A stretch of DNA of 31,600 nt, from positions 1 through 31,600 of the IMG/VR virus record IMGVR_UViG_3300021962_000407; one strand, written 5' to 3'. Position 1 is the stretch's first letter. Each line of letters opens with the position of its first letter. The notes below the pieces were generated by a model that saw nothing but the letters and a program-made list of their open reading frames with translations, had not been told where the DNA came from and ran no database searches. Positions 4,398-29,099 of the stretch are shown here, one piece after another. Both the position numbers and the translations under genes were made by a program. The stretch is from a virus.

Positions 4398-4471
4398 TAA
4401 ATACAAGTGTCCAGTTTTCTGGTAAGTTGGATAACTTGTATTTAACCCGGCCCGAAAGGATAACCAGAAAA
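4398..4471 (+). promoter_or_regulatory. Structured leader before the capsid gene
   Basis: The 143-base gap before the capsid gene holds a perfect 11-base inverted repeat (4398-4408 with 4434-4444) enclosing a smaller hairpin, CCAG TTTT CTGG (4411-4422). A second, exclusive pairing exists: TTTTCTGGT (4415-4423) is fully complementary to ACCAGAAAA (4463-4471). A CCCGAAAGG mini-hairpin (4451-4459) lies between. No U-run follows the large stem, so it is not a standard terminator. It may be a processing site, a stabilising 5' structure or a translational switch; none is demonstrated. Confidence 0.5.
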
Positions 4472-4530
4472 AATTTACAAGCCCAATTTAAAACGAGTTG
4501 TTTTCTTTAACTTTTTTTAAGGGGCATAAA

Positions 4531-23877: not shown

Positions 23878-23923
23878 GGGAAGGTGCGCCTCTATAGTGT
23901 GGAGTTAAGGGTAAGGAGGAAGG
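23805..23923. repeat. Internal partner of the left terminal inverted repeat
   Basis: Exact reverse complement of 1-119. It covers the 3' end of the terminase gene and 46 bases beyond. This copy sits in an intact gene and intact context, so it appears to be the original. Confidence 0.95.
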
Positions 23924-24237
23924 GGTAATGGGGGGGTATTCCTCAATTAACAGTTACTTGCTTAATTACTGCGCAGCCTAAAAGGGGACTGGCAAGGCGA
24001 TGCTCAGACTTCTGAGACTCCAGACTCCCACTCACCCGCGAAAAACCTGAACCCTCCCTATCTCCCCACGGATTTTTTAGTTTTTGGTTTTCGGGAATAT
24101 ATATTTCAAGGCTCCATCCCTACTATACTCCTCCTATTGACATCTGTCACATAACTGATATAATGGCGTCTGATTATTTGCGGGAGGATGGTCATAAGTT
24201 CCATTTTGGAACATAGCCACACATAAGGGGGGGAGGG
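23878..24237. other. Non-coding terminase/early junction, candidate packaging terminus
   Basis: About 360 bases without a credible ORF. The first half is visibly richer in G and C than the genome, with purine-rich and pyrimidine-rich runs, a hairpin CTCAG-ACTT-CTGAG (24003-24016) and a neighbouring short direct repeat GACTCC. The second half is AT-rich and ends in a consensus promoter. In T7-like phages the terminal repeat lies between the last late genes and the early promoters, so this is where the genome end or packaging site would be expected. That is inference from position; read-end data would be needed to prove it. Confidence 0.5.
24137..24164 (+). promoter_or_regulatory. Consensus sigma70 early promoter
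   Basis: TTGACA (24137-24142) and TATAAT (24159-24164) are both perfect, separated by 16 bases, with a TGA just before the -10 box (extended -10). This is the strongest promoter in the window. It drives rightward transcription into 24238 onward and is read by host polymerase, consistent with an early promoter. Confidence 0.85.
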
Positions 24238-24709: not shown

Positions 24710-24955
24710 ATGATAGCTGAAATCCCATTTGATATATTTAGAGACAAACGTTTAGGGCGTACTGATTACAAGGCCTACGCCTTTTTTTATTTAAATCAAG
24801 GCAAGCCAATTCCCACGGGCATATCAATATCAAAAGAAATTGGTTCAAATCCTGACGCAACATATGATGCAATTAGCAGACTTGAGGGTTTTGGTTATAT
24901 TGAAAAGGTAACAGTTGGTAGTGAAAAACACGTCAAGTTATTAAAGCATCATTGA
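24710..24955 (+). CDS. Small winged-helix DNA-binding protein
   Basis: 81 residues. After an N-terminal strand and helix (IPFDIFRDKRLGRTDYKAYAFF), a helix-turn-helix stretch reads GISISKEIGSNPDATYDAISRLEGFGYIEK, followed by a short beta wing. This matches small HTH_36-type modules found in phage and plasmid replication or regulatory proteins. AGGTG precedes ATG 24710. Just downstream lies a promoter with a palindrome at its start site, an obvious candidate target, though binding is not shown. Confidence 0.65.
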   Translation: MIAEIPFDIFRDKRLGRTDYKAYAFFYLNQGKPIPTGISISKEIGSNPDATYDAISRLEGFGYIEKVTVGSEKHVKLLKHH

Positions 24956-24980
24956 CAGTACGCTAAAACTATAGTACTAT
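24952..24980 (+). promoter_or_regulatory. Strong sigma70 promoter before a terminator
   Basis: TTGACA (24952-24957) and TACTAT (24975-24980) are 17 bases apart: a perfect -35 box, optimal spacing and a -10 box with one mismatch. It overlaps the last codon and stop of the winged-helix gene. Transcription would start near 24987, within a palindrome, and meet a terminator about 50 bases later. Confidence 0.8.
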
Positions 24981-24985
24981 TAAAC

Positions 24986-24998
24986 AGTGGTTACCACT
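24986..24998. promoter_or_regulatory. Palindromic operator candidate at the start site
   Basis: AGTGGTTACCACT is a perfect inverted repeat (6 + 1 + 6) centred a few bases downstream of the promoter's -10 box. The half-site ACCACT is partly repeated directly after it (TCCACT). Its position would let a bound repressor block transcription initiation. Confidence 0.5.
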
Positions 24999-25012
24999 TC
25001 CACTTCGATAAG

Positions 25013-25040
25013 GCCTTCTTGATTTTAAGAGGGCTTTTTT
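25013..25040 (+). terminator. Intrinsic terminator 50 bases after a promoter
   Basis: GCCTTCTT pairs with AAGAGGGC (one G-T pair) across a 6-base loop, and six T residues follow. It is a convincing Rho-independent terminator. No start codon lies between the promoter start site near 24987 and this element. Confidence 0.8.
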
Positions 25041-25061
25041 ACAGGAGAAAAGATTAAAAAG

Positions 25062-25115
25062 TTTTCCACAGAATTTGTTAGTAAACCTGTGGAAATGCTA
25101 TTAATTTAATCCACA
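25062..25115. promoter_or_regulatory. Cluster of DnaA-box-like sites
   Basis: Three 9-mers resembling the DnaA box (TTWTNCACA) lie within 54 bases: TTTTCCACA at 25062-25070, a full match to the relaxed consensus; ATTTCCACA on the minus strand at 25088-25096, one mismatch; TAATCCACA at 25107-25115, one mismatch. The surroundings are AT-rich. They lie in the leader between the terminator and the SSB gene, so they may act in replication or in control of SSB. Confidence 0.5.
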
Positions 25116-25174
25116 AAATGCGGAATCTCTTGATTAAATAACTATAATAATAACTCATACAAGGAGTATAAAAA

Positions 25175-25606
25175 ATGAAAACATTGGCTAGGGTTATCCT
25201 ATTGGGAATTGTCGGTAAAGACCCGGAACTTAAAGTCACAAAGTCAGGTATGCAGATTGCTACGTTTCCAGTTGCAACAATGGTTAAAAAGAAAGATCCA
25301 AACGGCGCATATTTTGAATCAACACTTTGGCACAATCTAGTATCGTTTGGAAAGTTAGCCGAGAATATCGAAAAAACCGTTAAAAAAGGCTCTAAAATCT
25401 ATGTTGACGGCACTATTGATTATCAAGAGTACGTTGATAGCGCTGGCAGCCAAAAACTCTCTACAAAGATTATAATCAATGATTTTAGTGTAATCAGTAA
25501 AAGTGAATATCAGCAATTAAGAGATAGCCTGGAATCCGTTGGTAACAAAAAGAAAGCTGACTTTGATAAACCCTTGTTTGAAACTGATGATGGCATTCCA
25601 TTTTAA
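25175..25606 (+). CDS. ssb: Single-stranded DNA-binding protein (SSB)
   Basis: 143 residues. An OB-fold SSB with the usual start (LARVILLGIVGKDPELK), VATMVKKKD, the LWHNLVSFGKLAENI block and KGSKIYVDGTIDYQEYVD. The C-terminus ends DDGIPF, the acidic tip that recruits replication and repair proteins. It coats single-stranded DNA during phage replication and recombination. AAGGAG lies 8 bases before ATG 25175. It heads a short operon with two small membrane proteins. Confidence 0.92.
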   Translation: MKTLARVILLGIVGKDPELKVTKSGMQIATFPVATMVKKKDPNGAYFESTLWHNLVSFGKLAENIEKTVKKGSKIYVDGTIDYQEYVDSAGSQKLSTKIIINDFSVISKSEYQQLRDSLESVGNKKKADFDKPLFETDDGIPF

Positions 25607-26152: not shown

Positions 26153-27127
26153 TCAGGTTTGATAAATTTTTTTAAGCGCATCTTTCATTTGTGTAATTGA
26201 ATTTTTGCTTGTTTCCGTATGAACAACCTTTTTTAAATGCTGAAACGCTAAAGCGTCTTTAGAATGCTCTTGGCGTTTTTTTTCTTGTACCTGCTTGTCT
26301 GATATTCCCATATGATATAAATCGCTTGTAGGTGCTTTATTTTTCGTTTTAGAGGCATTCCTATTGTGAATCCATTCTGCTTTTAATCCTTGCCACGAAT
26401 TTATGATAGCTTCATCGATGCAATCTTGTGCCACATAACCCATATCTACTGCTTTTTGAATTTCTTTTAAAATCAATTTCCATGCTTGTTCCGTCAATGG
26501 CTTCTTGATCGCCTTACGCATATCCGAGTAACCCTTCAATGTCTCATCATTAAAACCGAACGGGTTGTGATCGTAAATAGAAAATTTGGTGGTGCGCGGT
26601 GTGTGACTACACACACTATTAATTTCTTTATTTATTATTTCTTTATTTATGTCTCTCTCCAGAGATACCCCCCCTCTCTCTGTAGAGATACCCCCCTCTC
26701 TCTGTAGAGATACCCCTAGGTGACATGAATGTCCCTCCGGTATAATTTTTGTACTATTTATGTGAATAACTTTTTCTTCCGACATGTTGTCTTCAATTTC
26801 AACATGATTCAAGGCAGGTACAATATATCTTTTGTTATTTTTATATATTCGCTTCATTACATTATGTTTTTCAAAAAATTGAAAAGCTTTATTAATTCTT
26901 GAGTCTGATTCAATTCCAGTTCTTTCTTTAATTACTGAATTGCTCAGAAAACAACTTTTGCCCTTATTCCAAAATTGAAATATGGTTTCGAAGAAATCAA
27001 GAAATGTTAAAGTCATGCCTTTAAGTTGTCGGATATATCGAGGGATTATGTAAAATGTATCTTGATAATTTATAGTAACTTCTTGATTATTTGATATAAC
27101 TTTTTTGTTGCTATTTTGACCATTCAT
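26153..27127 (-). CDS. Replication initiator protein (O-like)
   Basis: 324 residues. The N-terminal 110 form a winged-helix-like domain (YIIPRYIRQLKGMTLTFLDF, then NSVIKERTGIESDSRINKAFQFFEK), as in phage O-type and plasmid Rep initiators. A low-complexity linker (about 135-175) follows, then a C-terminal domain (DETLKGYSDMRKAIKKPL onward) resembling helicase-loading partners. The linker DNA holds three iterons and an AT-rich repeat, matching the lambda O arrangement with the origin inside the gene. GAAGGAA precedes ATG 27127. The enzyme itself would bind iterons and load the host helicase; this is inferred. Confidence 0.7.
   Translation of the reverse strand: MNGQNSNKKVISNNQEVTINYQDTFYIIPRYIRQLKGMTLTFLDFFETIFQFWNKGKSCFLSNSVIKERTGIESDSRINKAFQFFEKHNVMKRIYKNNKRYIVPALNHVEIEDNMSEEKVIHINSTKIIPEGHSCHLGVSLQREGGISTERGGVSLERDINKEIINKEINSVCSHTPRTTKFSIYDHNPFGFNDETLKGYSDMRKAIKKPLTEQAWKLILKEIQKAVDMGYVAQDCIDEAIINSWQGLKAEWIHNRNASKTKNKAPTSDLYHMGISDKQVQEKKRQEHSKDALAFQHLKKVVHTETSKNSITQMKDALKKIYQT
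26599..26716. other. Candidate replication origin inside the initiator gene
   Basis: Three copies of a 22-23 base unit, CTCTCTCYRYAGAGATACCCC, have their AGAGATA cores at 26661, 26684 and 26706. Each contains the inverted element CTCTC..AGAGA. Beside them is a 15-base AT-rich tandem duplication (26622-26651, ATTTCTTTATTTAT twice), then a perfect 7-base inverted repeat GTGTGTG-ACTA-CACACAC (26599-26616). Iterons next to an AT-rich unwinding element within an initiator gene is the lambda origin layout. Confidence 0.65.
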
Positions 27128-28015: not shown

Positions 28016-28231
28016 TTAGTTTGGGATTCCCATCGGTTTATCATAAGCCGGGTCATGTTGAAAATCAGCTTTCAAAACATCATTGGTTACTTCTTGAATA
28101 TGTAATTGATGCTTCATCGGGATACCACCCTTCTTCCTCCAATCTCTAAGGGTTGTAATACTATAGCCTGTAGCTTTTTGCACATCATTCCATACCTTAT
28201 AATAGTGCACCCATACTTCTTCGATCGTCAT
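28016..28231 (-). CDS. Cro-like repressor
   Basis: 71 residues. The segment VWNDVQKATGYSITTLRDWRKKGGIPMKHQLHIQEVT follows the pattern of small Cro/YdaS-type DNA-binding proteins: a short helix-turn-helix (about 15-35), then GGIP and a helix leading to the vT..vl.ad sequence (here VTNDVLKADF). First gene of the leftward operon and divergent from the recombination operon, with a perfect inverted repeat between them. AAGGAAA precedes ATG 28231. It probably controls one or both divergent transcripts. No CI-type partner was found. Confidence 0.75.
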   Translation of the reverse strand: MTIEEVWVHYYKVWNDVQKATGYSITTLRDWRKKGGIPMKHQLHIQEVTNDVLKADFQHDPAYDKPMGIPN

Positions 28232-28247
28232 ATATAATTTCCTTTGT

Positions 28248-28275
28248 TAAAATGAAGCTTTATGTTATCATTTTA
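28248..28275. promoter_or_regulatory. Operator candidate in the divergent Cro/exonuclease gap
   Basis: A perfect 8-base inverted repeat, TAAAATGA (28248-28255) and TCATTTTA (28268-28275), has a 12-base spacer. It lies midway between the Cro-like and exonuclease starts. An outer pair, CCTTTGTT (28241-28248) and AACAAAGG (28285-28292), is largely explained by the two ribosome binding sites. A weak promoter TTGTTA-16-TATCAT (28244-28271) overlaps it. Confidence 0.5.
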
Positions 28276-28304
28276 CTGTTAAAAAACAAAGGAGAAAATA
28301 ATAA

Positions 28305-29099
28305 ATGATTGTAGATATTTCAAACGAAGAGTATCATGCGAGCGAAGGTTATTCAAAAAGTGCTTTAATGCTTTTTAAGCAATCACCGATTAAGTTTTAT
28401 TACGAATACGTTTTAGACAACAAAGAAGAAAAACAAAGTGATGATATGCTTCTTGGGACGCTAGTGCATACAATGACACTAGAGCCAGAGAACATTGCTC
28501 AATATATCCCCAGACCTAAAATCAACAGACAAACAAAAGCAGGTAAGGAAGAGTTTGCGAAGTTCAACGAATACGCAACAGAAAACAAACTAACTGCTAT
28601 TGATATCGAGGTTTACGAACAAGCTAAAGCAATGAGTGATTGCGTATTAAGCAACTCCATCGCTAAAAGCATTATCGACAAGGCAGCCAAAGAAAAGTCA
28701 TTGTACTGGTTTGATGAATTGACTGGACTTACTTTTAAAAGTAGACCGGACTTACTTGATGCTAAAATATCAGGCGACCTAAAAACATGCCGTGACATTA
28801 CTAATATTGGCTTTAGCCGTGCTTGTGTTGACCATGGATACTATTTGCAAGCTGCCATGTGTAAATTAGCAATGCAAGCCAACGACCTAGACTTTGAGCG
28901 TTTTGTGTTTATTTGTGTGAGCAAGTCTGAGCCCTACCAAGTAGTTAATTTTGTTCTTGACGAACAAGCCATAGAGTATGGCATTAATCAATTTAAATGG
29001 TGGTCGATGAAATTAGCCGAAGAATTAGAAAAAAATGATTGGCTAAGACCTCGTGTTGAAACTTTAAGTGTACCTAAATGGGTGGAGTGGAACCAATGA
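28305..29099 (+). CDS. RecE-like exonuclease (PD-(D/E)XK)
   Basis: 264 residues. The start (DISNEEYHASEGYSKSALMLFKQSPIKFYYEYV) and the LLGTLVHTMTLEP block are typical of the exodeoxyribonuclease VIII/RecE-type phage nucleases. The active site reads FKSRPDLLDAKISGDLKTC, i.e. a PD plus D-L-K, followed by a late YLQAAMCKLAM helix with the conserved Gln. The enzyme would resect double-stranded ends to feed a strand-annealing partner. AAGGAG precedes ATG 28305, and the gene overlaps the next one (ATGA). Confidence 0.88.
   Translation: MIVDISNEEYHASEGYSKSALMLFKQSPIKFYYEYVLDNKEEKQSDDMLLGTLVHTMTLEPENIAQYIPRPKINRQTKAGKEEFAKFNEYATENKLTAIDIEVYEQAKAMSDCVLSNSIAKSIIDKAAKEKSLYWFDELTGLTFKSRPDLLDAKISGDLKTCRDITNIGFSRACVDHGYYLQAAMCKLAMQANDLDFERFVFICVSKSEPYQVVNFVLDEQAIEYGINQFKWWSMKLAEELEKNDWLRPRVETLSVPKWVEWNQ

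Follow-up and report, generated by a model that had tools for sequence, protein, structure and literature searches.

The window, by which we mean the whole stretch of DNA analysed, spans the 31.6 kb of an IMG/VR virus record. Its gene content resembles that of a podovirus and includes a head-tail adaptor, terminase, SSB, an O-like initiator, a Cro-like regulator and exonuclease VIII. The Cro-like label of the regulator gene (28016) comes from a weak Pfam hit, and the phage collection that we searched held no near relative of the window. The region of interest, 24952-25040, lies between two plus-strand genes, which the first-pass annotation had described as a winged-helix protein gene upstream and SSB downstream. 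The SSB assignment stands (25175..25606; Pfam SSB 2.3e-24, phrog_44 8e-30), and the gene is conserved downstream of the region. For the 81-aa gene upstream (24710..24955), the only backing for the winged-helix label is a Pfam hit below threshold (TrmB, E 0.096), so we treat it as a possible winged helix. Searches of viral_contigs with this 81-aa gene returned L002/L004 and a distant 36% match, L003, and nothing else; there were no matches in genome_contigs or in the phages collection. The SSB search of genome_contigs likewise gave no matches. Between the region and SSB are three DnaA-box-like sites (25062..25115, plus strand), of which the one at 25062 is an exact TTWTNCACA and those at 25088 (minus strand) and 25107 have one mismatch each.

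A promoter followed closely by a terminator-like stem

A predicted sigma-70-type promoter, TTGACA-17-TACTAT (10/12), occupies 24952..24980 on the plus strand. Its -35 element (24952-24957) overlaps the stop codon of the 24710 gene, and its -10 element is at 24975-24980. Downstream, the sequence reads AGTGGTTACCACTTCCACTTCGAT, a 12-bp stem, six T and then ACAGGAGAAAAGA. On reading 24952-25040, we found no plausible open reading frame between promoter and terminator; the only early start codon is a GTG at 24988, which opens about 11 codons and has no ribosome-binding site. The promoter, start-site palindrome, terminator and ORF-free stretch of the first-pass annotation are thus all where it had placed them.

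We asked how unusual this arrangement is. Matches to the promoter hexamers are by themselves not above chance, with 48 promoter-like sites found in a scan of the window versus 56 expected, and a simple feature scan reports the promoter and misses the terminator. The combination is unusual in the window: a promoter of at least 10/12 with a terminator of -11 kcal/mol or better within 75 nt occurred once, versus a mean of 0.05 per shuffle, and at least once in 5 of 100 shuffles. The promoter is also kept in relatives. In L004 both hexamers are identical, as are 26 of the 29 promoter bases, and L024/L025 carry TTGACT-16-TATAAT (11/12) at the same place. No obvious promoter was seen by reading between the terminator and SSB, where a TATAAT at 25143 lacks a good -35 element.

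Other control-like sequences occur elsewhere in the window. A 12/12 promoter, TTGACA-16-TATAAT, lies at 24137-24164, and a perfect palindrome, TGACATCTGTCA, overlaps its -35 element; no other such palindrome occurs in the window. Promoters of 12/12 are also present in L030, L031, L032 and L033. Between the terminase gene and the 24137 promoter is an odd stretch, first G-rich and then C-rich (23890-24130), and in L025 a similar C-rich stretch precedes the early promoter. Finally, a long inverted repeat, ATACAAGTGTCCAG..TTGGATAACTTGTAT (4398-4445), follows a TTGCAA/TATAAA-like promoter and precedes the ORF at 4498. Comparable promoter-plus-hairpin sequences were seen in L029, L031, L032 and L033, and the repeat is possibly the structured leader of a capsid gene.

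Two hairpins shared with relatives

Relatives were collected through three SSB-based scans and two 81-aa-gene scans of viral_contigs. Five contigs carried close SSB relatives (L004, 87% identical; L025, 71%; L022, L023 and L024, 61-62%). L022 starts inside the ribosome-binding site and was excluded from the leader comparison. In all four contigs that reach the site (L004, L023, L024 and L025), SSB is preceded by a promoter, two hairpins, the first of them at the predicted 5' end, and ACAGGAGAAAAGA; the arrangement, for which the first-pass annotation had proposed conservation as a test, is thus shared by them. The four contigs amount to three distinct leaders, L023 and L024 being identical over this part, and two of the three are nearly identical. 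Overall, the element is real and conserved in position, and its stems partly covary.

Other searches added no relatives. Scanning viral_contigs for the promoter plus AGTGG..CCACT gave 11 stretches, of which only L014, the same contig as L004, was related; L010, L012 and L019 had the same sequence at the match. The pattern AGTGGTT(N)CCACTTCCACTT found only L014 in viral_contigs. In L014 (IMGVR_UViG_3300008450_009607), the 114 bases at the start are exactly reverse-complementary to the 114 at the end, which may be an assembly artefact. A nucleotide search with the region of the window yielded no phage match and six plasmid records with short weak matches (E 0.04-0.5); with the L024 region it yielded 14 phage records, with short weak matches only. 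In the distant SSB relatives L005-L008 (33-44%), of which L005 and L006 carry an identical stretch, we did not see by eye a two-hairpin leader directly before SSB.

Hairpin I (24986..25004, plus strand) consists of AGTGG (24986-24990), the loop TTACCACTT and CCACT (25000-25004), and lies at the predicted 5' end of the RNA. It overlaps the 13-nt palindrome AGTGGTTACCACT of the first-pass annotation (24986-24998), which has an alternative first arm at 24994-24998. The folding energy in the window does not discriminate between these arms; the relatives support the AGTGG/CCACT hairpin better than the palindrome, which has lost its centre base in L004 and is absent from L023-L025. The hairpin reads AGTGG-TTCCACTT-CCACT in L004 and GTTGG-TTCCCACT-CCAAC in L024/L025, two pairs being changed on both sides in the latter relative to window and L004. 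Across the leaders the loops stay TTACCACTT, TTCCACTT or TTCCCACT, so that TT(A/C)CCACT is near-constant while the stem pairs vary. Because MAFFT did not align the hairpins of the two subgroups correctly, hairpin I was compared through a hand alignment, which leans towards the structure. A hairpin of the same size and place arises in 328 of 20,000 random 60-mers of the window. The covariation of hairpin I is weak by itself, since all five pairs were kept in 22.5% of the trials in which the four differing arm bases were randomised. We also considered whether the ribosome-binding site is masked by pairing of its GGAG with CU(U)CC of hairpin I; this pairing was weak and inconsistent between leaders and was rejected.

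Hairpin II (25010..25040, plus strand) has a 12-bp stem (25010-25021/25026-25037) and a T-run at 25035-25040, as in an intrinsic terminator or attenuator. The segment 25000-25040 folds into this stem at -14.3 kcal/mol, versus -6.55 +/- 2.25 for shuffles. A G+C-rich stem followed by a U-tract is present in the window and L004 and not in L024/L025, whose hairpin II is built on another stem (GGAGGC../..GCCTCC) and continues into GTTTAATT or GCTTAATTTT with no good U-tract. Approximate terminator scores are positive for the window (4.6) and L004 (4.4) and are -26 and -40 for L024/L025. Among these leaders, predicted termination at hairpin II is thus confined to the window and L004.

The window and L004 differ at 10 of the 27 positions of hairpin II (17/27 identical), and 10 of its 12 pairs are nevertheless held; three pairs changed on both sides, one changed on one side, and the two outer pairs are lost. 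With the partners slid by 1-3 columns, 0 or 1 pair changed on both sides, and 64 of 500 shuffles reached the observed covariation value, which comes from two sequences only. The covariation controls are therefore weak for both stems. By contrast with hairpin II, which drifted in sequence, hairpin I with the discriminator (22/24 identical) and the tail with the ribosome-binding site (25038-25053; 16/16) did not; for comparison, third codon positions of the neighbouring genes were identical at 54/81 and 15/28. Folding of successively longer prefixes of all four leaders formed hairpin I first, and showed no stable pairing of the terminator 5' arm of window or L004 with upstream sequence.

What follows the hairpins differs between the lineages. 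The ribosome-binding site ACAGGAGAAAAGA (25041..25053, plus strand) is orphaned in the window, where it is followed by TTA. An identical string in L024/L025 runs on into AATG and a gene; in the window and L004, ATT or ATA stands in for the start codon. In the lineage of the window and L004, hairpin II is terminator-like, the first gene is missing and ACAGGAGAAAAG is left without its gene, whereas in L023-L025 the leader is followed directly by the ribosome-binding site and ATG start of a gene that precedes SSB. In L024 this gene encodes 83 aa (phrog_3199, unknown function) and is followed by one for a regulator-like protein of 103 aa and then by SSB; in L025, by reading, its place is taken by a 34-codon frame. 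The L025 contig also has, at 1484-2202, a C-terminal piece of a terminase-like frame near a lysozyme-like gene, with a head-tail adaptor frame on the other strand (labels by eye). Its gene order there differs from that of the window, through rearrangement or assembly.

A probable attenuated promoter for the SSB operon

Since the leader continues into a gene in L023-L025 and lies before SSB in all four contigs that reach the site, we regard it as the 5' leader of the SSB operon. Judging from the sequence comparison, 24952-25040 is probably a default-terminating, that is attenuated, promoter with this leader, the RNA of about 50 nt being a by-product (probability about 0.58). Transcription would start at about 24986-24987, and the 5' end of the RNA would fold immediately to give hairpin I. 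By default, hairpin II of the window and L004 would stop its own transcript, at about 50 nt, as well as polymerases reading through from the genes upstream. Expression of SSB and the genes that follow would then depend on those polymerases that pass hairpin II, through either leaky or factor-aided read-through, and the leader would thereby attenuate SSB. We infer default termination and dependence of SSB on read-through because nothing in the prefix folds holds the terminator 5' arm and there is no plausible frame for translation coupling. Hairpin I may protect the 5' end or serve as a binding site for a factor. In the more distant relatives, the same leader would be the 5' UTR of the gene that is missing from the window. 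SSB could instead be expressed from a non-consensus promoter.

The first-pass annotation had offered a small RNA or an attenuator controlling SSB. The attenuator gains from the position of the leader before SSB in 4/4 contigs and from the U-tract in window and L004, and the separate small-RNA unit has lost ground. A hairpin followed by a terminator is a typical small-RNA shape, and in the window and L004 the first gene of the leader is missing and predicted termination is good, all of which would suit a regulatory RNA of about 50 nt, with a 5' hairpin and terminator, acting in trans on phage or host RNA. Nevertheless, we consider such an RNA unlikely, because the same leader continues into a gene in L023-L025, and Rfam gave no matches in the window at gathering and none at E up to 1 for L001, L004, L024 and L025. 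No antisense target stood out in the phage itself, and that reading was set aside: 20 shuffled queries gave -21.1 to -30.2, a range that includes the best duplex with its own sequence (-25.3). The suggestion that the palindrome binds the 24710 protein is not supported by the comparison. As a DNA operator for that protein or for the Cro-like regulator at 28016, AGTGGTTACCACT would benefit from covering the predicted start site with a possible winged-helix gene just upstream. Against this, the palindrome decays in the relatives as described above and is not repeated at other control sites. Neither the other strong promoter (24137) nor the 28231-28305 gap contains a copy, and the 11 copies with up to three mismatches in the window compare with 6.4 expected, a number reached by 8 of 100 shuffles. 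Moreover, the 24710 gene was found in G005 (L004) only and not in G001-G004, and the leader persists in G002-G004. This makes an operator very improbable. We give even less credence to the leader as part of a replication origin, in which transcription from the promoter would activate the downstream DnaA-box-like sites. Such sites do precede SSB in 5/5 contigs examined (window 25062-25115, L004 992-1045, L022 44-78, L024 1030-1064, L025 2870-2904), but in L024 about 500 bp and two genes separate them from the leader, and the O-like gene contains iteron-like repeats beside an AT-rich stretch (26622-26718).

The position of the DnaA-box-like sites before SSB is independent of their distance to the leader. 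A lambda-type origin is expected inside the O-like gene, and the repeats at 26622-26718, three in tandem, TCTCTCTSYAGAGATACCCC-like, of 22-23 nt and each partly palindromic, are a candidate for such an origin with iterons.

Relation to known leaders and antitermination

In attenuators of the trp and riboswitch types, the first gene is separated from its promoter by a 5' leader that contains a terminator. Unlike these, the present leader has no leader peptide, and the prefix folds of the four leaders revealed no antiterminator helix competing with the terminator, so an attenuator working as an RNA switch was rejected. The lambda OOP RNA and the lambda PR' transcript are short terminated phage RNAs; here, by contrast, there are relatives with the same leader, where it forms the 5' UTR of a gene.

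The remaining alternative, also raised in the first-pass annotation, is antitermination. A phage or host factor at the promoter or hairpin I would let polymerase pass hairpin II, as with Q or AlpA, or the leader RNA would itself modify polymerase, as with put of HK022, which antiterminates directly by contacting the beta' zinc-binding domain. The layout is suggestive. At the attenuated promoters of AlpA and Q (P. aeruginosa alpB; phage 21 PR'), a sigma-70 promoter is followed tens of nucleotides on by an intrinsic terminator, before the genes (PMC7969949, PMC6606751), and at the AlpA target tB begins 54 nt from the start site (PMC7969949). HK022 putL has two stem-loops just after an early promoter in a region of about 70 nt (PMC9378689), a likeness to the present leader in form only. 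The near-constant loop TT(A/C)CCACT beside changing stem pairs would also fit recognition by a factor. However, PF06530 and PF03589 had no match in 6/6 records, a result that covers these two antiterminator families only and that others would escape. The ACTAT direct repeats seen by eye in the spacer of the window (8 bp apart) and of L004 are absent from L024/L025, and by eye the spacer shows no conserved repeats; hairpin II of L024/L025 would leave little to antiterminate. The leader further differs from AlpA and Q targets in serving the SSB operon rather than lysis or late genes and in a terminator character that not all relatives share, and from HK022 put in its short, simple stems and in a hairpin II that has a U-tract and is terminator-like. 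We regard the antitermination site of the first-pass annotation as rather unlikely. On our analysis, the resemblances to AlpA and putL are of layout only and do not indicate membership. Among the papers listed by library searches on put and antitermination, attenuation in SSB leaders, Q-type antitermination and small RNAs encoded by phages, we recognised no description of this leader element. At long odds, the two-hairpin leader may represent a novel phage RNA element in which a phage or host factor reads the near-constant 5' loop UU(A/C)CCACU and carries polymerase past hairpin II. The SSB operon would then be timed by a form of processive antitermination that relies on none of N, Q and put.

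Once relatives are compared, then, the supposed small-RNA gene of one phage appears as the 5' leader of a replication operon, as the attenuated-promoter reading proposes. If hairpin I does load a factor, a phage group known here only from uncultured virus contigs would have a compact antitermination element in this leader.
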